Made by a program: the position numbers and the translations under genes
Part shown: piece after piece, positions 28,815-53,119 of the stretch
Numbering within the stretch: position 1 is the stretch's first letter
How the letters are laid out: the number at the start of each line of letters is the position of its first letter
Assembly: GCF_004365705.1 (NCBI RefSeq)
Contig: NZ_SOBN01000002.1
Location: 1,612,001-1,676,000, forward strand
Reading direction: 5' to 3'
Origin: Streptomyces sp. 846.5
GTDB taxonomy: Bacteria > Actinomycetota > Actinomycetes > Streptomycetales > Streptomycetaceae
Length of the DNA: 64,000 bases
Notes under the pieces: generated by a model
What the model was told of the DNA's origin: nothing
The model's database searches: none
Seen by the model: the letters and a program-made list of their open reading frames with translations, nothing else

Positions 28815-30008
28815 TCACTCGACGGAGGCGGCCGGCACCGGGACCGGCTGCGCGCCGAGCCCGGCCACCACGGAGCCGGGCGCAGCGCGGCGCGGGAGGT
28901 AGATCATTCGCTCGGCGATCAGGAATCGCGCCGCGAAGGAGGCGATCAGCGTGAGGGCCGTCGCCACGATCACCTGCATGCCGAGACCGCTGACCAGCAG
29001 GGCCAGCAGGGGGATGCGCAGCAGCAGGTCGGCGTTGCCGAGCAGCCAGAACCGACCGGTGCGACTGGCCCAGTGACGGTGCCTCCGGTCGCGGAAGAGA
29101 GTGGCCTCCAGCAGGCTCAGATTCCATAACAGGGCACCCTGGTTGGCGACGACCTCGGCCGGGAGATAGTGCATTCCGGCGCGGATCAGCAGATGCAGCA
29201 GCCCGAGGTTGGGCAGCACGCCGGACAGCCCGATCAGGCCGAAGGCCAGGGCGCGTCCGGCCGGCGTGGACAGACGCAGGGTCAGCAGATGGCGGAGGAA
29301 GCGTATCCCCTCCCTGACCGTGGACTTGGACGTGCCGGCGTAGCGCTCCCCGAAGGTGTAGGGCACCTCGGCGACCTTGCGGAGACGGGAGCGCACCGCG
29401 AGCTCCAGCAGGATCTTGTAGCCGAGCGGGCGCAGCTCGGAGGTGTTCACCGCGGACCGCCGGATCGCGAAGAACCCGCTCATCGGGTCGCTGACGCCCC
29501 GCAGTTCCCGTGCGAAGAGGCCCTTGGTGAGCAGCGTGGACACGCCGGAGACCGCCATCCGGTAGCCGCCGGCCAGGCCGTCCCTGCTGCCTCCGGCCGC
29601 ATAGCGGCTGGCGACCACCAGGTCGGCCTGCTGCCTGCGGCCGGCCTCGACGAGTTCGGGGAGCAGCGCGGGCGGGTGCTGGAGGTCGGCGTCCATGACC
29701 ACCACCCATTCGCCGACGGCCTGCCGCATCCCGGCGACGACCGCGCCCCCGAGGCCGCCCTCGGCGACATCCCGGTGCAGCACCTTGATCGACAGCGGGC
29801 AGCCGGCCGCGGCCTCGCGGAGGAGCTGCGGCGTCCGATCGGTGCTGTCGTCGACGAAGAGCAACTCCGGCGCGGGCGACCGGCCGTCGACGGGGAGCGC
29901 GTCGACGAGCCGGCGGAGCAGCTCGGGGATGTTCTCCTGCTCGTTGAAGGTCGGGATGAGCACGGTGAACGGCGGATCCAGGGAAATCGGCAGGTCGGAG
30001 ATCGACAT
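28815..30008 (-). CDS. DPM1-like family 2 glycosyltransferase fused to a GtrA membrane domain
   Basis: 397 residues from the ATG at 30006-30008 (AAAGG upstream). Residues 1 to about 235 are a polyprenyl-phosphate sugar synthase (VLIPTFNEQENI, FVDDSTDRT, VMDADLQHPP as DxD, MSGFFAIRR). Residues about 240-375 are four-helix GtrA, as in fused polyprenyl-phosphate mannose or glucose synthases. It would make the lipid-linked sugar donor used by GT-C enzymes, and two GT-C genes are encoded 5 kb away, so a functional link is plausible. An upstream in-frame start in the AT-richer leader is less likely. Confidence 0.9.
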   Translation of the reverse strand: MSISDLPISLDPPFTVLIPTFNEQENIPELLRRLVDALPVDGRSPAPELLFVDDSTDRTPQLLREAAAGCPLSIKVLHRDVAEGGLGGAVVAGMRQAVGEWVVVMDADLQHPPALLPELVEAGRRQQADLVVASRYAAGGSRDGLAGGYRMAVSGVSTLLTKGLFARELRGVSDPMSGFFAIRRSAVNTSELRPLGYKILLELAVRSRLRKVAEVPYTFGERYAGTSKSTVREGIRFLRHLLTLRLSTPAGRALAFGLIGLSGVLPNLGLLHLLIRAGMHYLPAEVVANQGALLWNLSLLEATLFRDRRHRHWASRTGRFWLLGNADLLLRIPLLALLVSGLGMQVIVATALTLIASFAARFLIAERMIYLPRRAAPGSVVAGLGAQPVPVPAASVE

Positions 30009-30294
30009 GATGGGACCTTTCTCATCCGTTCGGAACTGAGGGAGATCCAGGAGGCGGGGAAGGACTGCCCTGGCAATTGGCATGCCCATGATGAACAAAT
30101 CGCATACGAATGCCGGTGATCCATCGGCGACCGCAGGAACAGTAGATAGCATCGGGAGGTCGTGTGGAGGACTGGTATTCAGAGTTTTACAAGCCAGCAA
30201 TTACGGCGACATTTCCAGGTAAGGAAGCCGGGGCGGCCCCGCCGACGCGTTCGTCGGCTGAGGCCGGCTACGGAGCGCATGCGATCCTGGTGCG

Positions 30295-38898: not shown

Positions 38899-40023
38899 CT
38901 GCGCCGTTTGACCCTCCTGCTGGCACTGGTGGTGTGTGTCGTCCTGGTGCTGCTGCCCCCGTCCTCGACGACGCCGGCCTCCACCCGACCGGCCCTGCCC
39001 TCCCTGCGCCTGGGCATCGCCTACGGCGACACCCTCGTTCGGATGTCCCATGCGGATCTCGCCGCATCGCTCGACGACGCGGTCGCGGTGGGCGCGCAGT
39101 GGGTGCGGGCGGACCTGTCCTGGGACGACATCCAGAGGGACGCACCGGACAGGTACGACTGGCAGCTGTTCGACCGGGTCGTCGACGCCGCCGCCGCACG
39201 TGGCCTCACCGTCCTGCCGGTCCTCGCCTACACGCCGACGTGGGCACGGTCCCCGGGCTGCACGAGCGACAAGTGTCCGCCCGCCGATCCGGCAGCGTTC
39301 GCCGCGTTCGCCGCCGCTGCGGCCAAGCGGTACGCGCCGCGCGGTGTTCACGTCTGGGAGGTGTGGAACGAGCCCAACCTCAGCGGCTTCTGGCAGCCCG
39401 CACCCGACCCGGCCGCGTACACGACGCTGCTGCGGGCGACCAGCCGGGCGCTTCGGAGTGCGGATCCGTCGGCGTATGTGATCCTCGGCGGCCTTGCCGC
39501 GACGCGTACCGCCGGCGGGGCGATCTCGCCGACGGACTTCCTGGCGGCTGTGTCGGCGCTCGGTGGGAACCGGCTCGTCGACGCCGTCGGCTACCACCCG
39601 TACACCTATCCGTACCTCGCCGGCGCCGCGACGTCGTGGGGAACCGCCTGGGAGCGGATCGACCGTACCCGGACCAGCCTGCGCAGCGTGCTGTCGGCGA
39701 ACGGCACCCCCGACCTGCCGGTGTGGGTCACCGAGACCGGGGCGCCGACCGGCGGCCCCGGCGCACCGTCCGACGGGCGGCCCTCGACGATCGGGCCGAC
39801 GACGACGCATGTGACCGAGGCCCGGCAGGCCTCGATCGCGGCGGACGCGGTGCGGACGGCGGCCGCCGACCCGGGCGTGGGCGCACTCTTCTGGTACTCC
39901 GACCGCGATCTGGGCACCGACCCGTCGTCGAACGAGAACTTCTACGGCCTGCGCCGCGCCGACGGAAGCGCCAAGCCCGCCTTCGCCGCCCTGCGCGGCG
40001 CCATTGCCGCACTCGGCGGCTGA
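38899..40023 (+). CDS. Secreted clan-A glycoside hydrolase (GH39/GH5-like)
   Basis: 374 residues if it starts at CTG 38899, 371 if at TTG 38908. CTG is favoured because AAGGA (38888-38892) lies 6 nt before it but 15 nt before the TTG, and because it adds Arg-Arg in front of the hydrophobic signal helix. A TIM-barrel hydrolase follows: acid/base Glu in VWEVWNEPNLSGF (Glu158 in the CTG numbering) and nucleophile Glu in VWVTETGAP (Glu279). Probably exported and possibly lipid- or membrane-held, since no clear cleavage site is seen. It ends 8 nt from the convergent glycan operon and may trim that glycan. Confidence 0.85.
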   Translation: MRRLTLLLALVVCVVLVLLPPSSTTPASTRPALPSLRLGIAYGDTLVRMSHADLAASLDDAVAVGAQWVRADLSWDDIQRDAPDRYDWQLFDRVVDAAAARGLTVLPVLAYTPTWARSPGCTSDKCPPADPAAFAAFAAAAAKRYAPRGVHVWEVWNEPNLSGFWQPAPDPAAYTTLLRATSRALRSADPSAYVILGGLAATRTAGGAISPTDFLAAVSALGGNRLVDAVGYHPYTYPYLAGAATSWGTAWERIDRTRTSLRSVLSANGTPDLPVWVTETGAPTGGPGAPSDGRPSTIGPTTTHVTEARQASIAADAVRTAAADPGVGALFWYSDRDLGTDPSSNENFYGLRRADGSAKPAFAALRGAIAALGG

Positions 40024-40030
40024 CGGACGC

Positions 40031-42301
40031 TCAGCGGAGCAGCGACCGGAACAGCCGGAGGTAACGGTCGGTCAGCGCCGGCCAGGCGTAGCACTCGACC
40101 GCCTCCTTGTGGCCGGCCGCGCCCAGGCGGTCGGCCAGATCGGCGTCCTGAAGGAGTCGGCGGCAGGCCCCGGACAGTGCGTCGGCGTCATCGGGCGGGA
40201 CGAGCAGACCGGTGACGTCATGCGTGATGACATGCGGGATGCCGCCCACGTCGGAGCCGACGACGGGCGTGCCGCAGGCCATCGCCTCGGCGAGGGCCAT
40301 GCCGAAGGACTCCGCCTCCGTGCGCGAGGGCAGTACCAGTACGGCCGCGGTCTGCAGTTCGGCGACGAGCGCGTCCCCGGTGAGTTCGCCGGTGAAGGCC
40401 ACGCGGGCGGCGATGCCGAGCTGCTCGGCGAGTGCCGCATGATCGGGGACCGCGTCCCCGCCTCCCACGAGTCGTAGCCGTGCGTCGGGCAGGTCGGCCA
40501 GCAACGCGAACGCCCGGAGCAGGACGTCGACGCCCTTCCACGCCGACGAGCGGTCCATGCGTCCGACATAGACGAGAGTCCTCGGACGCGTCGAGGCCGG
40601 CGCACCGGGAGTGAACCGGCTGATGTCGACGCCGGGCGTGATCTGCACCGCGCCGGCGCGGCCGTAGGCGAGCGAGACCGGCGAGACGGCGACCAGCGCG
40701 CGGGCACGCGAGAACACCCTCGGCAGCGCATGCCGCTCGTAGGCGGCGATCAGCCGGTCGGCATTCCTGCTCCCCTTGCTCCCCTTGAACATCGAGCCGG
40801 CGTGGTAGGTCAGCACGGTCGGACGCCGCCCGGCCACGGCGATCGCCAGATCCCCCAGGCCGGGCACCGGTGCGTGGGCGTTGACGAGGTCGACGTCGAA
40901 ACGACGCAGCCACCGGCGCAGCTGTAGCGGCCACAGCGGGCTGACCGGGGTGTTCGACAGCCGCGCCCAGGTCCCGAGCCGGACCACCGGCACGCCGGCG
41001 TCCTCTCCGACCGAGGTCCGCCGCCCTGCCGTGTTCGTGGTGAGGACGACGGCACGCAGCGCGGGATCGTCGGCGACCGCGCGGGCCACGCGCGCGACGT
41101 AGTTCTCAACCCCGCCGACCTTCGGCGGATAGTAGGGCGCGACGAGGGCGACCGTGCGTATCCGGCGGTCGCCGCCGTCCAGGGCACGGTCGAAGAGCTC
41201 TGCGGTGCGGTCGGACTGGCGCTCCCAGGACAGATCTTCGGCCACGCGTCTGCGGCCGGCCTCGCCGAGGCGCTGCGCGAGCGCGTCGTCGCCGAGCACC
41301 GAGCCGAGTGCCTCGGTGAAGCCCGCGCTGTCCCCCGCTGCGACCAGCAGGCCGCTGCCCCCGTCCTGGACCAGCGACGGGATTCCGCCGACCCGGGTCG
41401 TGACGACCGGGCGTCCGCAGGCCATCGCCTCGACCAGCACGCTGGGGAAGCTGTCGTAGTACGTCGGCAGGGCCAGGACGCGGGCGCGTCGATACGCCAC
41501 GGCCAGTTCCTCACCCTCCAGCCGACCGGTGAAGGTCACCTGGCGGGTGAGCCCGAGCCGGTCCGCGAGCGCCTCGTGGTCGGCGGCTGCCGACCCCGAG
41601 CCCACCACCTCGAGGTGCACGTCCGGGACCGTCCGCTTCAGCACCGCAACCGAGCGAAGCAGGTCGGACAAGCCCTTGTAGGAGGCGCTGCGCTCCAGTG
41701 ACCCGGCGAAGACGATGCGCGGCTCGGCCGGAATCGGACTCACCGTGAAGCGGTCGAGGTCGACGCCGGGTGAGATCGTCGTCGAGCGTCCCGCGAAGAG
41801 GTCGGGCAGGTCGGCGGCGACGTAGTCCGACGAGCACACGATCGCGCGTGCGCGACGCGCGGTCCCGGCCAGCAGGGTCCGCTCGTACGCCGCGCACACC
41901 AGGTCCGGCAGCATCCGTCCCTTGCGCATCCGGCCGGTGTGGTAAGTGAGCACGAACGGCAGCTCCCCGCAGGCGCGGGCGGCCGCGTCGGCGAAGAGCG
42001 GAACCGGCGCGTGCGCGTTGACGAGGTCGACCCGCTCCTCGTCGATGATGCTGCGGAGGCGGCGGCGCCAGTGCAGGCCGAGCGGTGTGTTGGAGGTCTT
42101 CGCGGGCGCCGCGATTCGGTACACCGGCATGCCGTCGGGGCCGTCGGACCGCCCGGTCTCCGCCCCCCTCGCGGCGGTCGTCGCAATCACGACCCGGTAG
42201 CCGTGCCGTGACTGCAGCAGTCGTGCGAGGTGCCAGACGTACTGCTGCACGCCACCGAGGTCGGGTGGGAAGTACGGCGTGGCGAGCAGAACCGTGGTCA
42301 T
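40031..42301 (-). CDS. Tandem double-GT4 glycosyltransferase fusion
   Basis: 756 residues made of two complete GT4 (GT-B) units. Unit 1 (1 to about 375) starts VLLATPYFPPDLGGVQQYV and has its E-x7-E region at DSFPSVLVEAMACGRPV. Unit 2 (about 381-756) starts VALVAPYYPPKVGGVENYV and has EAESFGMALAEAMACGTPV. Both contain NTPLG/NTPVS and LVNAHAPVP, so the halves arose by duplication. Each half has the length of one normal GT4 (about 375 aa). One polypeptide could add two successive sugars. Last gene of the ten-gene operon; the start overlaps the pyruvyl transferase stop (ATGA). Confidence 0.92.
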   Translation of the reverse strand: MTTVLLATPYFPPDLGGVQQYVWHLARLLQSRHGYRVVIATTAARGAETGRSDGPDGMPVYRIAAPAKTSNTPLGLHWRRRLRSIIDEERVDLVNAHAPVPLFADAAARACGELPFVLTYHTGRMRKGRMLPDLVCAAYERTLLAGTARRARAIVCSSDYVAADLPDLFAGRSTTISPGVDLDRFTVSPIPAEPRIVFAGSLERSASYKGLSDLLRSVAVLKRTVPDVHLEVVGSGSAAADHEALADRLGLTRQVTFTGRLEGEELAVAYRRARVLALPTYYDSFPSVLVEAMACGRPVVTTRVGGIPSLVQDGGSGLLVAAGDSAGFTEALGSVLGDDALAQRLGEAGRRRVAEDLSWERQSDRTAELFDRALDGGDRRIRTVALVAPYYPPKVGGVENYVARVARAVADDPALRAVVLTTNTAGRRTSVGEDAGVPVVRLGTWARLSNTPVSPLWPLQLRRWLRRFDVDLVNAHAPVPGLGDLAIAVAGRRPTVLTYHAGSMFKGSKGSRNADRLIAAYERHALPRVFSRARALVAVSPVSLAYGRAGAVQITPGVDISRFTPGAPASTRPRTLVYVGRMDRSSAWKGVDVLLRAFALLADLPDARLRLVGGGDAVPDHAALAEQLGIAARVAFTGELTGDALVAELQTAAVLVLPSRTEAESFGMALAEAMACGTPVVGSDVGGIPHVITHDVTGLLVPPDDADALSGACRRLLQDADLADRLGAAGHKEAVECYAWPALTDRYLRLFRSLLR

Positions 42302-43578
42302 GATGCCACCCCGGCCCGCTCGTGCACCTGCTCCGGCAGCAACTCACCGAGCTGCTCCGACAGTTGCTCCGCCTGCACGATGTACTCCGGCAGCCGCTGC
42401 CGGAGTGCCGCGGCATAGTCCTCGCGGTCTGCTTCGAGCCGCTGCACCAGCGACCAGAGGCGCTGGTACGTCACGTCGGCGATGGGCAGGACCCACTCCT
42501 CCAGACCGAGGTCACGCATGATCCCGCGGGTCTTGTGCTCGTACTCGATCGCGACACAGGGAACACCACTGGTGAGCGAGAAGATCACTGAGTGGAAGCG
42601 GGTGCCGATCAGCAGGGCGCACTCACCGTAGAGGCCCTTCAGATCGCGGTAGTCGACGCGATCGTCGATCCACAGCGGCTGGGTGGTGCAGTAGCCGGCG
42701 ATGCGGCCGCCGACGACGCGGTCGTCGTCGCCGAGATAGTCCGTGCTCACCTGCGGAATGAGCACCACGCGGGCCCCGCTCGCCTGGATCGAGTCGATCG
42801 TCTCGGCGACGGCGCGCTCGTAGCGCTCCTGGGCGGCCGGAGCGAGCCAGCGGCGCGCGGTGACGCCCACCAGGCGCGTGGTGGCGTCGACACCGAGACG
42901 GGCACGCCAGTCCGAGGTCTTCGCGGGGGCGAAGGCGAAACCGGAGTCGACCCCGCGAAGGATCCGCGCAGCGGGCACACCGCACTCCTGCAGGATCTCG
43001 GCGCTGACGTCCTCCCGGACCAGGACCAGCGCCGCGCGGCGCAGCACATGGGCGACCAGGCGCCGCTGCGGGGCGGCGGGGAAGGGTCCGTACGACTGCG
43101 GCGCGAAGACGACGGGGACGTCGCGGCGCAGCGCCATCAGGGCCGGGAGCAGGACGAAGAAGACGTTCTGGTAACCGTCGAGACCGGGCCGCGCGTTGAG
43201 GTAGCCGCCGCCCATCGACACCACGAGGTCCGCTGTGGACACGGCGTCGGTCTCGCACCGTACCTCGGCCGGCAGCACCGGCCGCAGCGCGCGGGACAGG
43301 AACTGAGGCAGCACCAGGTGGGCGGTACCGAAGGCGAGCGCCAGGAGCCTGCGCGCCATTCGCCGCAGCCTGGGGATCTCAGCCGCGGAGACATAGCGGC
43401 GGATCGAACCGATGTTCTCGGCGTTCTCGAACGAGGGGTGGGTGGCGGCGTCCTCCATCCCCGCTATCCGTACCCGGGCGTCCGGGAACGCCTCGCGGAT
43501 CTGGCGCAGGCAGACCGAGAGCAGCGCCGCGTCGCCGGCGTTCTCCCGTACGTACGCATTGATGACGACAACCTTCAT
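42298..43578 (-). CDS. Polysaccharide pyruvyl transferase family protein (CsaB/WcaK-like)
   Basis: 426 residues from the ATG at 43576-43578 (GGAGGAAG upstream). It begins VVVINAYVRENAGDAALLSV, the NxGDxA motif of the PS_pyruv_trans family, with VVSMGGGYLN, VVFAPQSYGPF and the late IGTRFHSVIFSLTSGVPCVAIEYEHKT, whose Arg/His pair is conserved. Family members transfer pyruvate from phosphoenolpyruvate as a ketal to a sugar of a surface polysaccharide, giving it negative charge. The stop overlaps the double-GT4 gene and the start overlaps the flippase stop. Confidence 0.91.
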   Translation of the reverse strand: MKVVVINAYVRENAGDAALLSVCLRQIREAFPDARVRIAGMEDAATHPSFENAENIGSIRRYVSAAEIPRLRRMARRLLALAFGTAHLVLPQFLSRALRPVLPAEVRCETDAVSTADLVVSMGGGYLNARPGLDGYQNVFFVLLPALMALRRDVPVVFAPQSYGPFPAAPQRRLVAHVLRRAALVLVREDVSAEILQECGVPAARILRGVDSGFAFAPAKTSDWRARLGVDATTRLVGVTARRWLAPAAQERYERAVAETIDSIQASGARVVLIPQVSTDYLGDDDRVVGGRIAGYCTTQPLWIDDRVDYRDLKGLYGECALLIGTRFHSVIFSLTSGVPCVAIEYEHKTRGIMRDLGLEEWVLPIADVTYQRLWSLVQRLEADREDYAAALRQRLPEYIVQAEQLSEQLGELLPEQVHERAGVAS

Positions 43579-44933
43579 CGACGGTCTTCCTCCAGAAGAA
43601 CGGGCTCGGGCAGTTGGCTCGTGGGTGAGGGTGCGGCGCGCCCGCCGAACAGCGCCAGGACGGCGTAGGCACCGGACGCGAGGTTGCCGATGTCCCAGGC
43701 CCAGCCCATCCAGACGAGTCCGCGGGACGCCCACAGGACGGCGAGGCCGATGGTGACGACGGAGTAGACGACGTTGCTGACGATGAGATGCGTCATCCGT
43801 CGGGCCAGCTTGAGCGCGAAGCTCGCCCAGGTGTTCAGCGCGACGGCGAGCGCGCCGAGGGAGAGCACGACGAGCAGCGGTTGCGCACGGACCCCGTAAC
43901 TGCCGCCGAAGAGTTGCAGCAGCAGACCGCTGCCGGCCGCCATCACCGCTGCGGCGGGCGCCTGGACCGCGGCGACGACGGCCGCCGACCGTCGCAGCAG
44001 CTCCCCGAAGCGCGACTCGTCGTAGGAGACCTCGGCGAACACCGCCTCACCGACGGCATAGGAGACCGAGTTGAGCAGGTTCGCCATCTGGAACGCGATG
44101 AAGTAGTAGCCGGCCTCGTCCGCTCCGAGGCGTTGCAGCACGATCATCGGGATCGCCATGATCGGTGCGAGGTTGAGGATGCTGGAGACGTGGCTCGCGG
44201 CGGAGTACCCCATCTGCTCGACCAGCGGAGTGCGGCGAGGGCGGAAGTCGAAGCGGAAGCCGAGCTTGCGCCACATGAAGAACAACGACGCGAGCACCGC
44301 CGCGACGTAGCCGCCCCCGGTCGCTCCCAGGATGCCGAACGCCCCCAGACCCAGCAGGGCCAGGGGCAGCGCGAGCTTGGTCAGTCCCTGGATGAAACCG
44401 TCGACGAGCACGTTGTACTGCGGCACGCGTTCGCCGACGAAGACGGCGTCGGTCAGCAGGTTGAGAGCCGCGAACACGCAGAACCCGACGAACGCCACCG
44501 ACGTCAGCGGGTCGTCCCGGACGAACAGCAGCCTCTGCCCGTACCACGGCAGGCCGAGGAGGTAGACCGACCCGACGACGCAGGCCGCCACCGCGACCAG
44601 GCCGGTCGCCTGCGTGATCTGCGCGTTGCGGGCGCCCGGAGCCGCAGGGAAGCGGATGAGTGTGCTGTTGAGCCCGAAGAGGCTGAGGTAGGCGATCAGG
44701 GACGTGGCGGAGATCAGCGATGTCGCCACGCCCACCTCCGCAGGCGTGTAGAACCGCGCGACCACGACCCAGAAGAGGAAGCCCAGGGCAGCCATCGTCG
44801 CCGTCGACGACATCAGGAAGAACGAGTTGCGCACCACCTGGTCCTGGGGACGGGCATGGTGGACGCCCACCGGACCGCGCGGGGCGCGCTCGGCGCCCCG
44901 GGCCCGCCGCACCCCCCTGATACCGCTACCCAT
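43575..44933 (-). CDS. Wzx-like polysaccharide flippase (MOP superfamily)
   Basis: 452 residues with 12-14 predicted helices. N-terminal VRNSFFLMSSTATMAALGFLFWVVVARFYTPAEVGVATSLIS is the classic polysaccharide-export signature. It would flip a lipid-linked repeat unit to the outside. The ATG at 44931-44933 overlaps the upstream gene by 8 nt; an earlier start would extend into that gene. It sits in the middle of the glycan operon. Confidence 0.9.
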   Translation of the reverse strand: MGSGIRGVRRARGAERAPRGPVGVHHARPQDQVVRNSFFLMSSTATMAALGFLFWVVVARFYTPAEVGVATSLISATSLIAYLSLFGLNSTLIRFPAAPGARNAQITQATGLVAVAACVVGSVYLLGLPWYGQRLLFVRDDPLTSVAFVGFCVFAALNLLTDAVFVGERVPQYNVLVDGFIQGLTKLALPLALLGLGAFGILGATGGGYVAAVLASLFFMWRKLGFRFDFRPRRTPLVEQMGYSAASHVSSILNLAPIMAIPMIVLQRLGADEAGYYFIAFQMANLLNSVSYAVGEAVFAEVSYDESRFGELLRRSAAVVAAVQAPAAAVMAAGSGLLLQLFGGSYGVRAQPLLVVLSLGALAVALNTWASFALKLARRMTHLIVSNVVYSVVTIGLAVLWASRGLVWMGWAWDIGNLASGAYAVLALFGGRAAPSPTSQLPEPVLLEEDRR

Positions 44934-45414
44934 GGCGCAGCGCCTCTGTCGCCTCTGTCGCCCCGTCGGCCGTCGCCGCACGGGTCCGCAGCGCGAACAG
45001 GGCGGCGGCGGAGGCCGCGAAGCACCAGACCGCTGTGGTGCCCTCGGTCGGAAAGTCGGTGAAATGGGTCAGCTGCCGGGCGATGGTTTCTGGGTGCGTG
45101 ATCGAGTTGGCGCCGAGATACGCCCACGCCAACAGGGTGTAGACGACGATCGTCCGCAGCGCCGCGTCGACCGGACCGCGACGGCGTTCCCGGCGCACCC
45201 ACAGCGTGCCGGTGCCGAGCTGCAGGGCGAACGACGCCAGTGCGGACACCGCGAAGCAGCACGCTCCGAAGGTGTCACGGCGCACCGGCAGCGGCGAGGC
45301 GATCGGCAGGGCGAGGTCCTGCAGCCGGAACACGGCCACGGCCGCGACATACAGCCAGCCCAGCAGGCCGTGGACCAGCGCCACTTCGAGTGCAGACCGA
45401 CGGAGCCCCCTCAC
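44926..45414 (-). CDS. Small four-helix membrane protein of unknown function in the glycan operon
   Basis: 162 residues with hydrophobic helices near 10-28, 48-68, 85-102 and 122-142; the loops are basic inside (RRERRRGPVDAALR). No family recognised; the layout resembles small Pr6Pr-like or FAR-17a-like integral membrane proteins, but the match is not firm. The GTG start overlaps the GT4 stop by 4 nt and the TAG stop lies 8 nt inside the flippase gene, so it is clearly a translated member of the operon. Confidence 0.8.
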   Translation of the reverse strand: MRGLRRSALEVALVHGLLGWLYVAAVAVFRLQDLALPIASPLPVRRDTFGACCFAVSALASFALQLGTGTLWVRRERRRGPVDAALRTIVVYTLLAWAYLGANSITHPETIARQLTHFTDFPTEGTTAVWCFAASAAALFALRTRAATADGATEATEALRHG

Positions 45415-46631
45415 CTCGCCTCCGCCGGGGTGCGCTCCCGCTCGACCGGCCCTCCCGGGCTCGTCTGCGGGACCCGGGCCAGGACATCGCCGTAGAGCCG
45501 GAGCAGCGAGTTGGCGTGCTCCTCCCAGGCGAAGCCCGTGACGGCGTACCGCCGCGAGTACTCGCCCGCGCGTGCACGTACCCCTGGGTCCCCGGCGAGT
45601 GCCGTCAAGGCCCCGCGCAGTGCCTCGACGTCCCGCGGCAGCAGCGTGACGTGTTCCCGGTCCAGCTCGTACGGGGCGTAGCCGGGGTCGTCGGTGGTGA
45701 CGACGGGAAGCCCCGACGCCATGGCCTCCTGGACGGTCAGCGGAAAGCCCTCGGCGGTGGACGGCAGCGCGAACACGTCGCAGGCGCGGTACACCTCGGC
45801 CAGCGCGTCCGGGGGCAGCGCGCCCAGGTGGTGCACACCGGGGCGGTTCTCCGCCGCGCGGCCCTCAGCGCCGTCCCCGACGAACACGACGTCGAACCCG
45901 GGGCCGGCCGCCGCGAGGAGCAGGTCGTAGCCCTTCTTGGGCACCAGTCTGCCGACGAAGAGGACGAGGACGCGGTCCTTCGGCAGCGCGAAGCGATCTC
46001 GCGCGCGATCGCGGTCCGCGCTGGAACTCGCGGGGCGGAACAGCTCGGTGTCCACCCCGTTCGCGAAGTGACACACGGTCTCCGGGCGCGCGCCCTGCTC
46101 GACCGCGAACGCCGCCACCGCGGTGTTGAGCACCAGGACCCGGCCGGCGCGACGCAGCAGCCCGCGCCCCGCCACCGCGTAGACGGCCCGCTGCACCCCG
46201 CGGACCAGCGCGGACGGATGCTCCACCAGGGCGATGTGCTGCGTGAGGACATGCGGCGTGCGGGTGGCCGCGCCGGCGAGTCCGGCAGCCCATGACGTCA
46301 TGTAGAGGCAGTCGTGCACATGCACGACGTCCGCCCAGCGCGCCCAGCGCAGTGCGGCGAACAGCAGCCGCGGCGCCAGGACGGGGAAGGGGACGCCCGC
46401 GCGCTCCTCCGCGCCGTTCCACGCCGCGACGCGGACGACGCGCACCCCGGGCGCGTCCGACCCGTCGTCCGTCCCGCTGCGCGACCCGCTGGTCAGCACC
46501 GTGACCTCCACGCCCCGGCGCGCGAGGTGGAGGGCCTCGTGCCGGACGACGTTCTCGATCCCGCCCACGTGCGGTGGGTAGTAGTGACCGACGAGCAGCA
46601 CACGCAGGGGACGCTCGGGCGGTGTCCTCAT
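45411..46631 (-). CDS. Family 4 glycosyltransferase
   Basis: 406 residues, GT-B fold. N-terminal VLLVGHYYPPHVGGIENVV, a donor domain with VLFVGRLVPKKGYDLLLAA, and acceptor-donor motif EGFPLTVQEAMASGLPVV (E-x7-E). It is a cytosolic, membrane-associated enzyme adding one sugar to a lipid-linked intermediate. N- and C-termini overlap neighbouring genes by 4 nt each. The donor sugar is not readable. Confidence 0.94.
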   Translation of the reverse strand: MRTPPERPLRVLLVGHYYPPHVGGIENVVRHEALHLARRGVEVTVLTSGSRSGTDDGSDAPGVRVVRVAAWNGAEERAGVPFPVLAPRLLFAALRWARWADVVHVHDCLYMTSWAAGLAGAATRTPHVLTQHIALVEHPSALVRGVQRAVYAVAGRGLLRRAGRVLVLNTAVAAFAVEQGARPETVCHFANGVDTELFRPASSSADRDRARDRFALPKDRVLVLFVGRLVPKKGYDLLLAAAGPGFDVVFVGDGAEGRAAENRPGVHHLGALPPDALAEVYRACDVFALPSTAEGFPLTVQEAMASGLPVVTTDDPGYAPYELDREHVTLLPRDVEALRGALTALAGDPGVRARAGEYSRRYAVTGFAWEEHANSLLRLYGDVLARVPQTSPGGPVERERTPAEAR

Positions 46632-48979
46632 CGGTAGATCTCCGCTCCCTCACTGCTGTAGAGCTCGTCCTTGGTCACGTCCAGGAACGCGACAGGATAG
46701 CGGTAGGTCACCAGGTCGCCCTGGTAGAAGGTGGTCGCCTCGCCCTTCTGCACCGTCGTCGTGCCGAGGAAGACGTACGAGCGCACCCCGACCAGCGTCG
46801 GGTAGATGTCGTCCTGCGCGCGTCCGCGGATCAGTGTCTGCAGCCGTCCGAAGGTGTAACGGTCGGTCTGGACCTCCGAGTGGACGTTCGCGAGCTCGTC
46901 GGCCGACGTACGGCTGTCCAGCCAGGCGATCGCCGTGCGCTCCTCGGGGTGGACGTAGTAGATGTCGTAGTACTGACCGGAGTTGTCGAGGTTCAGCTGC
47001 GCCGGGTAACCCCCGAGCACCTGCGGGACCGCACCGGTGAGGTCGAGGAAGAACGCCAGCGCCAGCGAGCACGCGATCGGCGCCGCAAGTCGCCCGGCCC
47101 ACCGGCACACCCACATCGACCCGGCCACGACGAACGGGGCGAAGACGAACAGCCCCTGCTGGAACGCCCGCAGCACGCCGTAGTCGACCGAGAGCTGCGG
47201 CAGCACCGTGAGCAGTCCGATGACGACCAGCATCCCTACGGTCAGGGTGACCTGGTCGCGTGACGGCCGGAACGCCCTGCGCCGGCCCAGGACCGTCGTG
47301 GCGACGCCGAGCAGCAGCAGCAGTTGCAGCAGTCGCGCGGCGGTCTGGCGGACGAAGCCGTTGGCCGCCGTCACATCGATGCCGTGCTGCTGCAGCGTTC
47401 GGCCGATCAGTGTGAGCGGAAGGTCCTGCTGCTGCACGACCGGTGTGGCATAGGCGTCGATGACGTTCAGCGACGCGTAGCCCCCGGCCGCCCGTTCCGT
47501 CGTGGTCTGGCTCACGGTGGCGGCGCGGTACTCGGTCAACCGCTGCGCCGGACTGACCGCCGTCCCGCCGAACAGGCTGTACGAGGTGTCGGACGACCCG
47601 CTCACCGACTGCCCGCCCAGGAGTCCCTGCACCGTCTTGGAGAGGGTGCTGTGCAACTGACCGGTCGTATGGGTGACGGGGCCGGTCCAGAGGACGGCCG
47701 CGGCCGCCGTCGCCGCCAGCATCCACCAGGTCACGAAACCCCGTACCGCCGGGCGTTCTCCGCTCCCCGCCGCGCGGGATCGGGCCCTGCGCCGGGGCAT
47801 CGGCCAGGCCTGCCGTCGGAGCAGCCGCCAGCCGAGATCGGTGCAGAACGCCAGCCCGAGGACCGCCATGACGACATAGGTGGTCGAGTAGTGCGAGAGC
47901 ACGATGCCGGCGAGCAGGACCGTGACCATGACCTGACGGCTTCTCAGCGGGCGGGCGGTGTCGGTGATGACGACCATCGTGCCACCGAGTAGGACGAAGG
48001 CGATCTCCTGGCGTCCCAGGAAGGTCATGTCCGTGAAGAACGTCGGGAACGCCATGAAGTAGACCGCCGACAGCAGCGCCACCAACTGGGGCGCCACATT
48101 GCGCACCGAGCGGTAGACGAGCACCGGAGCCAGTGCGAAGAACAGCGGGAGCAGCACCTTGAAGACGTACGTACCGGGGATGCCGGTGAGCCGGGCCAGC
48201 GACGTCGGCAGCAGGGTGATACTCAGGCAGGCGTTGTACGGGTCCTGGAAGGCCGCGATGGACCAGTGGTCGGCCGTGGCCGTCAACTGGAAGACCTCGT
48301 ACTCCCGTTGGATGTCGTGCCCAGTGATGTACCAACCGCGCAGCGAGGTGAGCAGCAGCAGCGCCGCCGCCGCGCAGAACAGGCCGAGTTCCAGCACGGC
48401 CGTCGGGTAGTGGCGGCGGCGCGCCACCAGGAGCGTGAGCAGTGCCGCGTTGCTGACGAGCGCTACGACGCCGACCGCCGAGCCCAGTTGGTTGTTCAGC
48501 CGGATCGCGCCCGCGACCGACAGAGCGAGCGTGACGGCGCCGAAGGCCGACACCGCGACCAGGCCCGGAGGCGCGGAGAAGGCATCGGCGCGCGACCGCG
48601 CGGCGCTTTCGGACGAGCGGGACGGCAGGGGGGCCGCGAGGGCGAGAACCAGAAGGGCCAGTACCGAGGCGCCCAGGAGCGGCCCATGGGCGAGCGGGTG
48701 GGCCACCCCGGCGAGCGGCAGGACGGTGTTCACGGCCAGCGCGACGACGATGTCGGTGATGATGCCCAGACCGACGGCGATCAGCACGCACCCGTCCCGC
48801 GTCGACACCGCGCGGGAAGCGGCTCCGTACCACAGCACCGTCGGCGCACCGACGAGGAGCCAGAGGCCGGCGAGCGCCACCAGTGCGGCGGGAGCCCCGG
48901 GCAGCAGCTCGATCGCACCGGCGAGCGCAACGGCGCCGAGGACCGCGCGACGGCTCTCCAGCCGTGTCCGGGCGGTCAT
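46628..48979 (-). CDS. DUF2206-like large membrane protein, candidate polymerase or transferase
   Basis: 783 residues with roughly 14-16 helices and a C-terminal extracytoplasmic domain of about 130 residues (NLDNSGQYYDIYYVHPEERTAIAWLDS onward). The stretch GWYITGHDIQREYEVFQLT matches the DUF2206 signature, where acidic residues after the first loops resemble GT-C active sites. In this operon, which otherwise lacks a Wzy polymerase, it is the best candidate for the polymerase or a lipid-donor glycosyltransferase (inference). 4-nt overlaps on both sides. Confidence 0.82.
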   Translation of the reverse strand: MTARTRLESRRAVLGAVALAGAIELLPGAPAALVALAGLWLLVGAPTVLWYGAASRAVSTRDGCVLIAVGLGIITDIVVALAVNTVLPLAGVAHPLAHGPLLGASVLALLVLALAAPLPSRSSESAARSRADAFSAPPGLVAVSAFGAVTLALSVAGAIRLNNQLGSAVGVVALVSNAALLTLLVARRRHYPTAVLELGLFCAAAALLLLTSLRGWYITGHDIQREYEVFQLTATADHWSIAAFQDPYNACLSITLLPTSLARLTGIPGTYVFKVLLPLFFALAPVLVYRSVRNVAPQLVALLSAVYFMAFPTFFTDMTFLGRQEIAFVLLGGTMVVITDTARPLRSRQVMVTVLLAGIVLSHYSTTYVVMAVLGLAFCTDLGWRLLRRQAWPMPRRRARSRAAGSGERPAVRGFVTWWMLAATAAAAVLWTGPVTHTTGQLHSTLSKTVQGLLGGQSVSGSSDTSYSLFGGTAVSPAQRLTEYRAATVSQTTTERAAGGYASLNVIDAYATPVVQQQDLPLTLIGRTLQQHGIDVTAANGFVRQTAARLLQLLLLLGVATTVLGRRRAFRPSRDQVTLTVGMLVVIGLLTVLPQLSVDYGVLRAFQQGLFVFAPFVVAGSMWVCRWAGRLAAPIACSLALAFFLDLTGAVPQVLGGYPAQLNLDNSGQYYDIYYVHPEERTAIAWLDSRTSADELANVHSEVQTDRYTFGRLQTLIRGRAQDDIYPTLVGVRSYVFLGTTTVQKGEATTFYQGDLVTYRYPVAFLDVTKDELYSSEGAEIYR

Positions 48980-50067
48980 GCGAGAGCCTCGGCGTAGACG
49001 TCCTCGACCCGACGGACGACCGCGTCCCAGGAGTAGGCGCGCGCGGCCTCGGCGCTGCGCCGCCCCAGGCGCAGCCGCAGTTCGGGGTCGCCGGCGACCG
49101 CGTCGATCACGGCCGCGAGCGCGGCGGGATCGGGCGCGGCGAGCAGCCCGACATCGCCGAGCAGTTCGGTGTTGCCCGGTACGTCCGTGGCCACGATCGG
49201 GAGGGCGGCCGCCATCGCCTCAAGAGCGACCAGCGGCATGCCTTCCTTCTCCGACGGCAGCACGAACGCGTCGGCCTCGGCGTACGCACGGACGAGTTCC
49301 GGACCGAGACGCTGTCCGGCGAAGGTGACGTCCGTCAGGCCGAGCTGAGCCGCCTGCGCCTGCAGCATCGCTCGTTGCTCGCCGTCGCCGACGACGGTCA
49401 GGTGGACGGGTTGGCGCACCAGTCCCATTGCCTCCAGGAGCCGTCCGACGTTCTTCTGCGGGCTGAGCCTTCCGACGTAGAGCAGGCGCAGCGGACGGTC
49501 CGTCACCTCCCGTACCGGCATGAAGTAGGCGGGACCGACGCCGTTGGGCACGACGAAGGTGCGGTCGGCGCGGACGCCGTACGTCTCCTGCACAAAGCCG
49601 GCCTGAGCCTCCGTCAGTACGACGACAGCGGCGGCATCCCGCAGCACGCGCCCGAAGACGTGCTTCTTGTACGCCGGCAGCAGCCAGCCCAGCCGGCCGG
49701 AGGCGTCGACGTCGAGATGGAAGTGCAGCACGAAGCGCTGCCCCCGGGCCCGTGCCGCGAGGGCGACCAGCTCGGGCAGCAGGGCGTGCGCACAGTGCAG
49801 GTGCAGCACCGAGGTCCGCGGTGACCGCAGCAGCGACATCAGCAGCCCGGGGGCGAGCGGTGTGTGCGCGAGCTCCACCGCGCGGTGCCGCCGGACGGTC
49901 ACACCACCGGCCCGCGAGCACCGCGGCTCCGTGCCCGCGCCGATGTCGGTCGTGACGACCCGGACGTCGTGGCGGTCGCCGAGCCCGGCCGCCAGGCTCT
50001 CCACGACGCGCTCCAGGCCTCCGAGATGCGGCGGGTAGTACGGCGTGATCTGCAGGATCGTGCTCAT
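48976..50067 (-). CDS. Family 4 glycosyltransferase
   Basis: 363 residues from the ATG at 50065-50067. It begins ILQITPYYPPHLGGLERVV, with donor-site LLYVGRLSPQKNVGRLLEA and EGMPLVALEAMAAALPIV. Similar in layout to the other GT4 enzymes of the operon and to both halves of the fusion protein. The start overlaps the deacetylase stop (ATGA), which rules out the longer in-frame extension upstream. Confidence 0.94.
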   Translation of the reverse strand: MSTILQITPYYPPHLGGLERVVESLAAGLGDRHDVRVVTTDIGAGTEPRCSRAGGVTVRRHRAVELAHTPLAPGLLMSLLRSPRTSVLHLHCAHALLPELVALAARARGQRFVLHFHLDVDASGRLGWLLPAYKKHVFGRVLRDAAAVVVLTEAQAGFVQETYGVRADRTFVVPNGVGPAYFMPVREVTDRPLRLLYVGRLSPQKNVGRLLEAMGLVRQPVHLTVVGDGEQRAMLQAQAAQLGLTDVTFAGQRLGPELVRAYAEADAFVLPSEKEGMPLVALEAMAAALPIVATDVPGNTELLGDVGLLAAPDPAALAAVIDAVAGDPELRLRLGRRSAEAARAYSWDAVVRRVEDVYAEALA

Positions 50068-50816
50068 CGGACCGCCAGTTCGAGGAGGTCGCGGTTGGGG
50101 ACATAGGCGACGTCGGGCCGTCCTGCGATGTGGTCGAGGACCCGCTCCAGCCGGTACCAGTCGCGCCTCGCGTCGACCTCCCAGCTGTGACCCCAGAGAT
50201 GGAACACCCCGCCGTTCCTGAGGCACAACTCGAACCACCTGAAGGCGAGTTCGTCCCAGCGCAGAAACAGCTTGGCGGCGGCCCACGGCCGCAGCCGCGC
50301 CAGGCGCAGGGAGAGCGGTCCGTCCACCCGGTGGGCGTAGGCGTTGACCGTCGTGTCCGTCTCCAGCGGTGCCCCGGGGACGAGCGTGCTGCGTCGGACC
50401 GTGCGCGCGAGCGTGAAGCCGACCTCACCGGCGAGGCCGACGTGGGTCGGCGTGTACTCGCCGCGGGGGTAGCAGAAGCTGGTCACCTGCGTTCCGACGA
50501 TCTCTTCGAGCTCCGCCTTGCCGGCGCTCATCTCCTCACGGGCCTCGGCTTCGGACAGCAGGGGCAGCCGCTGGTGGGTCAGTGTGTGGCCGCCGATCTC
50601 GAAGCGCTCGGCCAGTTCGCGGATCCCGGTGGAGGGGAGACGGTCCGCGGGGTCCAGCTCAAGGTTGCGTGGCGCGATGTAGAACGTGCCGGCGATGCCG
50701 TACTTGTCGAGCAGCGCGGCAAGGCGGGGGTCGAGCCGGTGCCCGTCGTCCCAACTCGTCGTGACGACGGTGCGCGGACGCCCGTCGGGAGCTGCCGGAG
50801 TCGGTGTGGCGGTCAT
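50064..50816 (-). CDS. Polysaccharide deacetylase family protein (NodB homology)
   Basis: 250 residues from the ATG at 50814-50816. Motif 1 TTSWDDGH supplies Asp23/Asp24 and motif 2 GGHTLTHQ supplies metal His77 and His81; FCYPRGEYT is motif 3. No signal peptide is seen, so it may act in the cytoplasm on lipid-linked or nucleotide sugars, or on an intermediate. It would N- or O-deacetylate the glycan. Coupled at both ends by 4-nt overlaps. Confidence 0.92.
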   Translation of the reverse strand: MTATPTPAAPDGRPRTVVTTSWDDGHRLDPRLAALLDKYGIAGTFYIAPRNLELDPADRLPSTGIRELAERFEIGGHTLTHQRLPLLSEAEAREEMSAGKAELEEIVGTQVTSFCYPRGEYTPTHVGLAGEVGFTLARTVRRSTLVPGAPLETDTTVNAYAHRVDGPLSLRLARLRPWAAAKLFLRWDELAFRWFELCLRNGGVFHLWGHSWEVDARRDWYRLERVLDHIAGRPDVAYVPNRDLLELAVR

Positions 50817-51352
50817 GGTGTGCCCTTGCTCGTGGGGAGCGACGAACTCCCGAGGCGGAAGTGCAACTTCTGGGTGTGGCCGAGCAGTTCGACGTGGACG
50901 ACGAAGACCCCCCGGGGCGGCGCGAGGCGGACGACGGTCGACACCGGCACGTCGGGCTGCGGGACCAGCGTGGTGGTGGTCGACGCCGTGACGCGACCGT
51001 CGGAGCTCTCCAGCCACACCTTGAGTGAGTACGTCCCCGTACCGGTGCCGTGGTCGACCAGCGAGACCGGAACCACCGCGAGGGCGTGCTCGACGGTCGG
51101 CGCACGGGTGAAGTACAGCTCGGCGTAAGGGCTCGGCAGCCGCGTGAACGACGCGCGCAGCTGCTGCCGCACGGCCGGAGTCGACCACGCGGCAACCGCG
51201 ACGACCACCGCGGTCAGCAGCACCGCGATCATCCGGCGACCGGCGGACGCACGGCTGTGCCCGCCGCGCCGACGGCGCGGCGGCACGTGGTCGGTCGGCC
51301 CCGACGGCTGCTCCGTGTCCGTCCCGAGGTCGTCGTCGAGCATCGGGCTCAT
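50813..51352 (-). CDS. Membrane-anchored extracytoplasmic protein of unknown function
   Basis: 179 residues: an acidic then Arg-rich cytoplasmic N-terminus (PPRRRRGGHSRASAGRR), one helix at about 41-58, and an outside domain of about 115 residues rich in beta-forming Val/Thr (VVPVSLVDHGTGTGTYSLKVWLES), resembling a small immunoglobulin-like or carbohydrate-binding sandwich. No named family. ATGA overlaps on both sides. It might be a scaffold or chain-length factor for the glycan machinery. Confidence 0.78.
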   Translation of the reverse strand: MSPMLDDDLGTDTEQPSGPTDHVPPRRRRGGHSRASAGRRMIAVLLTAVVVAVAAWSTPAVRQQLRASFTRLPSPYAELYFTRAPTVEHALAVVPVSLVDHGTGTGTYSLKVWLESSDGRVTASTTTTLVPQPDVPVSTVVRLAPPRGVFVVHVELLGHTQKLHFRLGSSSLPTSKGTP

Positions 51353-52110
51353 ACGGCGCCGATCTCCTCGGCCTGCAACGGACCGGGCCCCTCGGCGAAG
51401 CCGACGACGATGGACGGCACCACGGGTCTGGTCGGCCGGAGGCGGTGCTCGAAGAGCTGGCGAAGGTTCCGTATCCCGTCGGACACCGCGTTCAACTTCA
51501 CCTCCCCGCCGCGCTTGCGGTACTCGATCGGTGCCTCCAGGTATCGGTAACCCGCCGTCGTCGCCGCGTTCTTGATCTCCTGCGAGAAGGCCATGCCGGT
51601 CGAGCGGACGTCGATGCGCTCCCAGACATGGCGCTGGAATATCCACATGCCTGACTGCGAGTCACGCAGCCCGTTGCGGAACAGCGTACGGCTGACCGCG
51701 CTGAGGACGTGGTTGGCGAGCGAGTGCGAGGGCTTCATCGCCTTGTTGCTGCGGGAGAGGCGGTTCGTGGTCATGAACTCGACGTTGCTGGCCACCAGGG
51801 TTCTCAACAGCTGCGGCAGCGCGTCGAAGGGGTAGGTGCAGTCGGCGTCACCGGTGGCGATCACGTCACCGGTCGCCGCCGCGAACCCCGCGTGGTAGGC
51901 GTTGCCGTAGCCGCGCTCGGGCTGCTGGACCACCCGGGCGCCGAGCGAGCGGGCGACGTCCCCGGTGCCGTCGGTCGACCCGTTGTCGACGATGATGACC
52001 TCGGCCTCCCAGCCCTCGGCGGCGAGTTCGGCCACGGGGATGGCCGCCATGACCGGCGGCAGGTTGGGTGCTTCGTTGAGTGCGGGAATGACGATCGACA
52101 GCGTGTTCAT
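51349..52110 (-). CDS. Family 2 glycosyltransferase, DPM1-like (polyprenyl-phosphate sugar synthase)
   Basis: 253 residues: SIVIPALNEAPNLPPVM, IIVDNGSTDGTG, ATGDADCTYPFD as DxD, and RDSQSGMWIFQRHVW as the acceptor region. It lacks membrane helices, so it is a soluble or peripheral GT2 that either makes a lipid-phosphate sugar or starts the repeat unit. The ATG at 52108-52110 is preceded by GAGGGGG. First gene of the operon; the long AT-richer leader 52111-52580 lies upstream. Confidence 0.9.
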   Translation of the reverse strand: MNTLSIVIPALNEAPNLPPVMAAIPVAELAAEGWEAEVIIVDNGSTDGTGDVARSLGARVVQQPERGYGNAYHAGFAAATGDVIATGDADCTYPFDALPQLLRTLVASNVEFMTTNRLSRSNKAMKPSHSLANHVLSAVSRTLFRNGLRDSQSGMWIFQRHVWERIDVRSTGMAFSQEIKNAATTAGYRYLEAPIEYRKRGGEVKLNAVSDGIRNLRQLFEHRLRPTRPVVPSIVVGFAEGPGPLQAEEIGAV

Positions 52111-52231
52111 CGTGGACCCCCTCATGGCTTGTAAGAACGACGTCCTGGATCCGGGCAGGCCGAATCGACGTGCCGGACGATGAGTCCGAAGGCGGGCTGA
52201 GATACAGCCCGATGTAAAGGCTTCATTTCAC

Positions 52232-52252
52232 AGTGATTACATGATCTTCACT
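52232..52252. promoter_or_regulatory. AGTGA/TCACT inverted pair, BldD-like
   Basis: AGTGA (52232-52236) and TCACT (52248-52252) are inverted with an 11-nt spacer, 122-142 nt upstream of the operon start. The arms match the recalled AGTgA-n-TCACc consensus of the developmental repressor BldD, though the spacing is variable in known sites. Weak evidence alone. Confidence 0.35.
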
Positions 52253-52266
52253 CGCCGAGTCGGCGC

Positions 52267-52302
52267 GTCACAGGATTTTGGCCACCCCCGAATCCCCGTG
52301 AC
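52267..52302 (-). promoter_or_regulatory. Imperfect hairpin in the glycan-operon leader
   Basis: Arms GTCACAGGATT (52267-52277) and AATCCCCGTGAC (52291-52302) pair 5 + 5 bp around a small internal loop, closing a 13-nt loop. It lies about 160-190 nt upstream of the first gene. It may be an RNA leader element or a protein-binding palindrome. Confidence 0.4.
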
Positions 52303-52580
52303 ATACCTTCAGCACAGCTATACACAAAGGCGAAATGCCCAGGAAACAATTCGGCCGTACCCCCGCCCCCCAGGCGTTCGAGCTGGATACCGACCTGCAC
52401 GTCAGTGCAGATCGGGCGCAGGACCGATGCTGACGGCTGACGCATCCGGAGAGAAAGTCTTTTTGATTAGCGTTACTCATCCGTTATTGCACAGACGGGT
52501 CAGGTCACAACGGATGGACCACTGTCATGGACATCGTTTATCATCCACACAGGGAGGCTTCATAAGCCGATGACCGACCG

Positions 52581-52748
52581 TTACCGCACCGGCCGGCGGT
52601 GGCGCCGGGACCAGCGCATCGCGCCCCAGACCAGGTCGGCGGCCAGCAACAGGCAGCCGATGACCAACAGGTAGAGCAGCCCCTTCACGGCGAAGCCGAT
52701 GATGCCCAGCACGATCGCGATGATCACGACCGACAGGAAGAGTGTCAT
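52581..52748 (-). CDS. Small hydrophobic membrane protein (55 aa)
   Basis: 55 residues, read directly from the sequence: MTLFLSVVIIAIVLGIIGF followed by a second hydrophobic stretch and a basic end (WSRRHRRPVR). Two membrane helices. Such short hydrophobic proteins are common in Streptomyces with no known function. GAGGAGG lies about 9 nt before the ATG at 52746-52748, and the gene follows the PRC-barrel gene by 14 nt, so the two form an operon. Ends in TAA. Confidence 0.75.
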   Translation of the reverse strand: MTLFLSVVIIAIVLGIIGFAVKGLLYLLVIGCLLLAADLVWGAMRWSRRHRRPVR

Positions 52749-52762
52749 GACCGCGTGCCTCC

Positions 52763-53119
52763 TCAGCCGCGGGCGAGCTGCCGCTCGCCGTCCGTGCCGG
52801 GCTGGTAGGTGAGTTCGTAGTGGTCGAAGATCGCCTTCTCGTCCTCGGCGGCCAGGACGTCGTCGGTCCCCATCGAGGGCGCGCTCTTCACCAGGCTCTT
52901 GGTGTAGGGGACTCTGACGTACTCGGGGCCCACCACGGCCTCGGCCAGCGGGACGAAGACCAGTCGGCGCCGGGACGGCAGCCCGATCAGAACCGTCGCC
53001 ATGGCGGGCTGGTCCGTACGGGTGTCGACGTAGACCGCCTCCAGGGAGCCGATGCGGTGTCCTGTCGCATCGACCACGTCATGGGTGCGCCACTCTCGGA
53101 TGTCCCCGACCTCGATCAC
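52763..53119 (-). CDS. PRC-barrel domain protein
   Basis: 118 residues from the GTG at 53117-53119 (GAGGAAG upstream). The PRC-barrel region is IREWRTHDVVDATGHRIGSLEAVYVDTRTDQPAMATV, followed by VPLAEAVVGPEYVRVPYTKSLVKSAPS and an acidic C-terminus. PRC barrels act in RNA processing and stress proteins; the role here is unknown. A second PRC-barrel protein (DUF2382) is encoded 1.2 kb away. The longer upstream frame has no similarity to the family. Confidence 0.87.
   Translation of the reverse strand: MIEVGDIREWRTHDVVDATGHRIGSLEAVYVDTRTDQPAMATVLIGLPSRRRLVFVPLAEAVVGPEYVRVPYTKSLVKSAPSMGTDDVLAAEDEKAIFDHYELTYQPGTDGERQLARG

Follow-up and report, generated by a model that had tools for sequence, protein, structure and literature searches.

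A conserved actinobacterial glycan operon with a DUF2206 membrane protein as candidate GT-C enzyme in the place of Wzy

Archaeal N-glycosylation by the Agl pathway relies on AglJ, further glycosyltransferases (GTs), a flippase, and AglB, and it is one of several described systems that share parts with a ten-gene operon of Streptomyces sp. 846.5 (RefSeq assembly GCF_004365705.1; genome of 9.03 Mb). This operon lies on the minus strand of a 64,000-nucleotide (nt) stretch of contig NZ_SOBN01000002.1 (positions 1,612,001 to 1,676,000), hereafter the window, whose numbering is used throughout. It has in common with the Agl pathway a GT2 enzyme nearest to AglJ and DPhHxTase, a DUF2206 protein whose GT-C model matches AglB (Z 18.0), a flippase, and soluble GTs, but its GT2 falls below the family cut-offs, its genome yielded no PF02516 (STT3) protein at 1e-5, and it adds four GT4 domains, a PslG-like hydrolase, and a membrane protein with an immunoglobulin (Ig)-like domain (TM-Ig). 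The Wzx/Wzy pathway is matched by the MOP flippase, GT4 enzymes, pyruvyl transferase, and deacetylase, whereas no Wzy, Wzz, or WbaP/WecA-type family was listed for the ten proteins, which instead include a predicted GT-C enzyme whose core resembles STT3. The Psl locus of Pseudomonas aeruginosa likewise combines GT4 genes and a flippase with PslG, although the hydrolase is here convergent and outside the operon, and Wzy-like, Wzz-like, and outer-membrane parts are missing from it. Finally, the bacterial polysaccharide polymerases and their relatives (GT119 to GT135) are, like the predicted DUF2206 enzyme, integral membrane GT-C proteins with lipid-linked donors; those to which PMC10920833 gives a structural class are GT-CB, whereas the DUF2206 model matches GT-CA, in a comparison that did not include clans GT-C2 and GT-C3 (GT122 to GT124). 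Titles and the beginnings of abstracts in the searched literature gave no description of such a cluster. DUF2206 is named in none of the papers of the searched library; PF09971 appears in one membrane-protein data paper. The parts are known, but their combination is new and the key enzyme is, as far as this literature shows, without assigned function.

The operon runs from 52110 to 40031, with an ATG at 52125 as alternative first start. It encodes, in order, the GT2 (253 amino acids, aa; 51349–52110; PF00535 at 1.5e-24), TM-Ig (179 aa; 50813–51352), a polysaccharide deacetylase (50064–50816; PF01522 at 1.1e-18), the glycosyltransferase GT4a (48976–50067; PF13692 at 2.1e-34), the DUF2206 protein (783 aa; 46628–48979), GT4b (45411–46631; PF00534 at 7.5e-29), a protein with hydrophobic segments by eye that we call mem7 (162 aa; 44926–45414), a MOP (Wzx-like) flippase (43575–44933; PF13440 at 3.5e-11), a polysaccharide pyruvyl transferase (42298–43578; PF04230 at 5.6e-34), and a 756-aa GT4-GT4 fusion (40031–42301) with two stretches matching GT4 families. 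The PslG-like hydrolase (38908–40023, plus strand; PF00150 at 8.3e-10) converges on the operon, leaving 7 bases between its end and the operon's last base. A preliminary description of the locus had it 8 nt away and beginning at 38899; the convergent, adjacent arrangement stands, while the earliest possible start of its open reading frame (ORF) is a TTG at 38908. The same description counted three GT4 genes, which is right for genes, although the last one is double and brings the GT4 domains to four.

We tentatively favor, with confidence a little short of even, a pathway in which this operon builds a surface glycan with a polyprenyl-phosphate lipid as carrier and the DUF2206 protein stands in the place of Wzy, in a manner resembling the archaeal Agl system. 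The lipid, donor, acceptor, product, formation of a polymer, and order of steps are all inferred. The GT2, a candidate lipid-phosphate hexose transferase, would work inside the cell and, like AglJ, attach the first hexose to a lipid monophosphate; it is taken as the chain starter because the operon has no gene for a WbaP/WecA-type initiator. The next sugars would then come from GT4a, GT4b, and the terminal GT4 domains, and the intermediate would be decorated by the deacetylase and the pyruvyl transferase, which both appear to be cytoplasmic and are the parts swapped between strains. Once the flippase had turned the lipid-linked glycan outward, the DUF2206 protein may take it as donor and pass it, most likely, to a growing chain, with TM-Ig as its partner on the outside and the PslG-like hydrolase cutting or trimming the product.

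The case for the DUF2206 protein as a candidate polymerase or transferase comes from its predicted structure. Pfam assigns it to PF09971 (4.2e-14) with a weak PMT_2 match, and among 25 aligned members the DUF2206 family is recognized in all, PMT_2 in 8, and DUF6541 in 4. An AlphaFold2 (AF2) model built from 25 sequences (alignment A2, covering 24 of 26 named loci; L038, found in two pieces, and the partial L060 were omitted) reached a predicted local distance difference test (pLDDT) score of 84.5. In a VIA-align comparison, which does not exclude fold families outside its set, residues ~187–783 matched yeast STT3 with a Z-score of 21.6 (4.6 Å over 405 residues), followed by ArnT (18.5), AglB (18.0), PglB (17.8), AftA (16.5), and others, with unrelated rows far lower at ~6; residues 1–186 form an additional N-terminal helical module ahead of the GT-C core. 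Conservation is concentrated in the same core, since 32 of the 55 residues invariant across the 25 sequences fall within 208–368, although late-starting alignment rows make the N-terminal part seem less conserved than it may be. D222, E226, D317, and R323 are invariant, and H221-D222 and E226 sit at the start of a helix (221–236) that follows the first core membrane helix (193–212). GT-C enzymes keep acidic residues at this place, and D222 and E226 may lie on the outer face and be catalytic. By sequence, PF02516 was not listed for the protein at E-values up to 0.1, and a PDB profile search gave no credible match. Its model nevertheless places the DUF2206 protein among the GT-C enzymes, with a core resembling STT3. 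This agrees with the earlier suspicion, from the preliminary description, that it builds the chain; the accompanying idea of a chain builder not yet described goes too far, since the fold belongs to the known GT-C class.

In the table of PMC10920833, the GT66 oligosaccharyltransferases are the sole GT-CA family with an oligosaccharide donor. A bolder proposal, which we regard as doubtful, is that the DUF2206 protein belongs to GT-CA but not to GT66 and transfers oligosaccharides, polymerizing flipped lipid-monophosphate glycans or moving them en bloc and so doing the job of Wzy, with an Ig-like membrane partner in this lineage and otherwise archaeal logic. With a flippase-dependent cluster that has no Wzy but an STT3-shaped GT-C protein, there would be a second way of building chains, bacterial capsule-like polymers would be linked to the N-glycosylation machinery of archaea and eukaryotes, and DUF2206 would gain a testable function.

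The genes of this pathway travel together. Across a survey of 200 genomes of the Streptomycetaceae, a DUF2206 orthologue was found in 17, TM-Ig in the identical set of 17, and the hydrolase in these plus one more (genome G035; 18 of 200), with two copies of each of the three genes in genome G133. Among same-genus genomes all three occur in the same 4 of 14, which a random pick would produce once in 1001 cases, so that the shared distribution does not reflect kinship alone. Each of the 17 other family loci (in 16 genomes) carries the GT2, TM-Ig, GT4a, DUF2206, GT4b, flippase, and terminal GT4 genes together with the convergent hydrolase, the terminal GT4 corresponding to the second half of the 756-aa fusion; in locus L032, as an exception, the GT2 lies past the hydrolase on the opposite strand, and several loci have an additional GT4 between the flippase and the terminal GT4. 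The block and the hydrolase form one unit within the family, and the comparison of gene order proposed in the preliminary description bears out its single-pathway reading. Other parts vary: the deacetylase occurs in 3 of the 17 loci, mem7 in 4, and the full GT4 fusion in 3. The pyruvyl transferase is found in 15, at 45–48% identity in 7 and 64–71% in 8; in a wider scan it is missing from many loci and only 44–52% identical in others. Because it varies in this way between loci, a pyruvylated product would be specific to strains, and the pyruvyl transferase does not define the product as had been supposed.

The suggestion that the hydrolase could remodel the product gains from its coupling to the block within the family and from its resemblance to PslG; in several more distant loci the available DNA shows no hydrolase. 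PslG is its nearest solved relative (1.5e-27), and the alignment brings together both acidic motifs, the NEP motif (WNEPNL-GFW) and the TE motif, which are catalytic in PslG-like (GH39-like) hydrolases; against PF01229 it stayed below cut-off (23.7 vs 26). Its N-terminus is hydrophobic by eye, which points to a secreted or anchored enzyme. In two Streptacidiphilus genomes the cluster closes with two adjoining genes for PslG-like hydrolases (L031, 13248–15557; L033, 3273–5678). In G035, a PslG-like hydrolase of 65% identity (L066, 8720–9727) stands with no other block gene within the 20 kb examined, and it may be a leftover or an enzyme acting on the polymer of others.

Beyond the family, the block is more variable. 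A search with each species represented by a single genome returned 26 loci, which belong to Streptomyces, Kitasatospora, Streptacidiphilus, Actinoplanes, Amycolatopsis, Pseudonocardia, Nocardioides, another actinobacterium, and one Parcubacteria metagenome-assembled genome (MAG). Three of the 26 duplicate loci found before, which leaves 23 further loci. TM-Ig was found in 18 of these 23, and in 12 the hydrolase faces the terminal GT4, while two Nocardioides loci (L057, L058) have two weaker hydrolase matches each (32–40%), one after DUF2206 and one past a double GT4. L036 is without GT4b; in L061 both GT4a and GT4b are missing, the deacetylase match is short, and GT4 occurs in several tandem copies. 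The DUF2206 gene is rare in the class (4 of 394 genomes including its own, by protein query; the PF09971 profile was a weak class-wide probe, with 4 of 296) and gave no match in a search for plasmid-borne copies; the DUF2206 family also occurs in Methanosarcina acetivorans. In a tree of DUF2206 proteins (omitting the contig copies L005, L011, and L013, as well as L038 and L060), the window groups with the Streptomyces loci L061, L036, and L039 (98/98), apart from the other Streptacidiphilus rows. Eight flanking proteins of the window were compared with the other loci, and the sole match was a generic major facilitator superfamily (MFS) transporter (28%, in L056 and L060). The site therefore differs between genomes as far as the few kb of flank compared show; the distribution is patchy, and the block probably spread horizontally.

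A number of results weigh against the proposed role of the DUF2206 protein. Foldseek returned low TM-scores, with AftA first (E 1.2e-5, TM 0.37/0.46) and oligosaccharyltransferase chains next; among the 25 members there was one weak match each to EpsG (0.03) and Glucos_trans_II (0.0058); and the relatives L015 and L017 do not keep the SSD motif of DUF2206. Of the 23 further loci, the four from Nocardioides that lack a TM-Ig match and the Parcubacteria MAG have DUF2206 with no TM-Ig found next to it, and nine show no hydrolase in the available DNA (L037, L038, L040, L049, which is partial, L050, L056, L059, L060, and L061). The GT2, best matched by the archaeal NCBIfam models DPhHxTase_Halo (6.7e-35) and AglJ (5.6e-31), misses both equivalog cut-offs, with 120 bits where 375 are required and 108 where 325 are, and the genome carries Wzy_C at five places and Wzz at two, all outside the window. 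Four of the five GT-CA families in the table of PMC10920833 use lipid-phosphate monosaccharides, so the fold by itself does not tell the donor or acceptor of the DUF2206 protein.

In the main rival explanation, the GT2 makes a lipid-phosphate hexose that is flipped and the DUF2206 protein adds this single hexose as a branch or cap, following the logic of GtrB or ArnC with ArnT. Its attractions are that the GT2's best PDB match is a dolichol-phosphate mannose synthase (8.8e-12), that the DUF2206 protein comes close in fold to ArnT and AftA, and that PMT_2 is weakly matched in a third of its members (8 of 25). In addition, a GT2 that itself carries a GtrA/DPMS transmembrane domain is encoded 10 kb from the operon (28815–30200, minus strand), a candidate complete lipid-phosphate-hexose synthase and possible source of donor. 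However, the operon's own GT2 has only 253 aa and no GtrA/DPMS domain, no GtrA match was obtained for any of the ten proteins, and initiation and polymerization of the chain would be left without a gene in the block. We consider this explanation unlikely.

The Wzy_C and Wzz places elsewhere in the genome bear on a second rival, in which a Wzy/Wzz pair encoded there polymerizes the repeat unit exported by the operon and the DUF2206 protein only decorates it. The preliminary description had noted that no Wzy or Wzz homologue is recognizable in the operon, and Pfam agrees, listing no Wzy_C, Wzz, or WbaP/WecA-type family for the ten proteins; its step from there to a chain builder within the operon is weakened by the distant copies. 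None of these copies is in the window, 16 other family genomes retain the core block, and no Wzy was found among 19 extra ORFs scanned in relatives, a scan that covered the 25 gaps between matches in the family and named loci except for two of less than 500 bases in family loci (L023, L034) and for gaps in L047, in L060 (a single one of its three), and in L061. Thirteen of the 19 are GT4 enzymes, and the rest are esterase, laminin-G-like, or acyltransferase-like proteins or have no match. Polymerization from a distance appears improbable.

The pairing of DUF2206 with TM-Ig raises a third alternative, namely that the DUF2206 protein is an oligosaccharyltransferase acting on a protein, or on TM-Ig itself, in a glycoprotein system like that of archaeal AglB. 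TM-Ig has no Pfam family, and its AF2 model is of modest confidence (pLDDT 76.6; predicted TM-score 0.56), with a helix at 37–56 that by eye is a membrane helix, a second helix, and eight beta strands, for which Foldseek gave Ig-like domain matches (best 1e-4, with low TM-scores). Of the two membrane proteins described earlier as unknown, the second protein of the operon is thereby modelled as a helix with an Ig-like domain, while the seventh, mem7, is still without a Pfam or NCBIfam match. In an alignment of TM-Ig from 19 loci (A3, omitting L041, in two pieces, and L048, and with no match in L056–L060), Ser68 is invariant and Thr70 conserved in at least 90%, both at the end of the second helix, where they are possible O-linked acceptor sites. 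These residues, the constant company of TM-Ig and DUF2206 in the family, the presence of STT3, AglB, and PglB among the best fold matches, and the likeness of the GT2 to AglJ would all suit a glycoprotein system. WWDYG is a motif of STT3-type oligosaccharyltransferases, and nothing like it is found in the DUF2206 alignment; furthermore, no STT3 family match by sequence was obtained for the operon protein or its genome, a PslG-like enzyme suits a polymer better, and five loci have DUF2206 without a detected TM-Ig. A glycoprotein system is accordingly very unlikely in our estimate, and a growing chain is the acceptor that we prefer. A separate idea, that TM-Ig corresponds to the C-terminal Ig-like part of DUF1616 proteins, was dropped, as PF07760 was not listed for 20 members at E-values up to 1; one of 20 TM-Ig rows matched Wzy_C at 0.18, which we take as chance.

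The layout of the operon is also conserved. Eight of its junctions overlap by 4 nt and one, between mem7 and the flippase, by 8 nt, exactly as first described, and third-position guanine-cytosine (GC) content is 0.87–0.92 across the ten genes and 0.90 in the hydrolase. Such 4-nt overlaps are common in actinobacterial operons. Translational coupling is conserved as well. Of 258 adjacent junctions counted in 40 other loci, 195 show the same pattern, with a start precisely 4 nt within the upstream neighbor, and 218 have the downstream gene in the corresponding frame (the count omits L043, L044, L055, the window, and neighbors with matches more than 260 bases apart or overlapping by more than 60), and the overlaps of the operon are therefore not due to chance. 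The exact overlap is nearly universal around DUF2206 (GT4a to DUF2206, 31/32; DUF2206 to GT4b, 32/32) and less regular elsewhere (TM-Ig to GT4a, 8/23; GT4b to flippase, 11/23). A scan of 52080–52800 found no terminator upstream of the operon and two weak sigma-70-like sites (0.3 expected).

Among the remaining proteins, the deacetylase has the DDG and HxxxH motifs and an N-terminus without a hydrophobic stretch by eye, and for this reason it probably works inside the cell on a lipid-linked intermediate. The pyruvyl transferase exceeds the PF04230 cut-off and stays below the CsaB and WcaK equivalog cut-offs, and the two GT4 domains of the fusion are 43% identical to each other. A defense-system reading was set aside, as four proteins gave no PADLOC match. 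Several relatives have features of their own. The terminal GT4 gene of Streptomyces sp. V4I2 is present in several tandem copies (L061, 13804–21711), and the Parcubacteria MAG (L059; 1.0 Mb, contig GC 0.49) encodes, outside Actinomycetota, a related set of GT2, GT4, deacetylase, double GT4, DUF2206, GT4, and flippase proteins at 28–54% identity. Nocardioides DUF2206 loci include genes for a laminin-G-like protein, a putative esterase, and a lipid A acyltransferase-like protein (L058, 13033–14976 and 18613–19482; L060, 8796–9809). Within the window itself, a 1357-aa protein (24590–28660, minus strand) with HYDIN/ASH-type Ig, legume-lectin-like, and PQQ_2 matches adjoins a further GT2 gene at 23109–24359.

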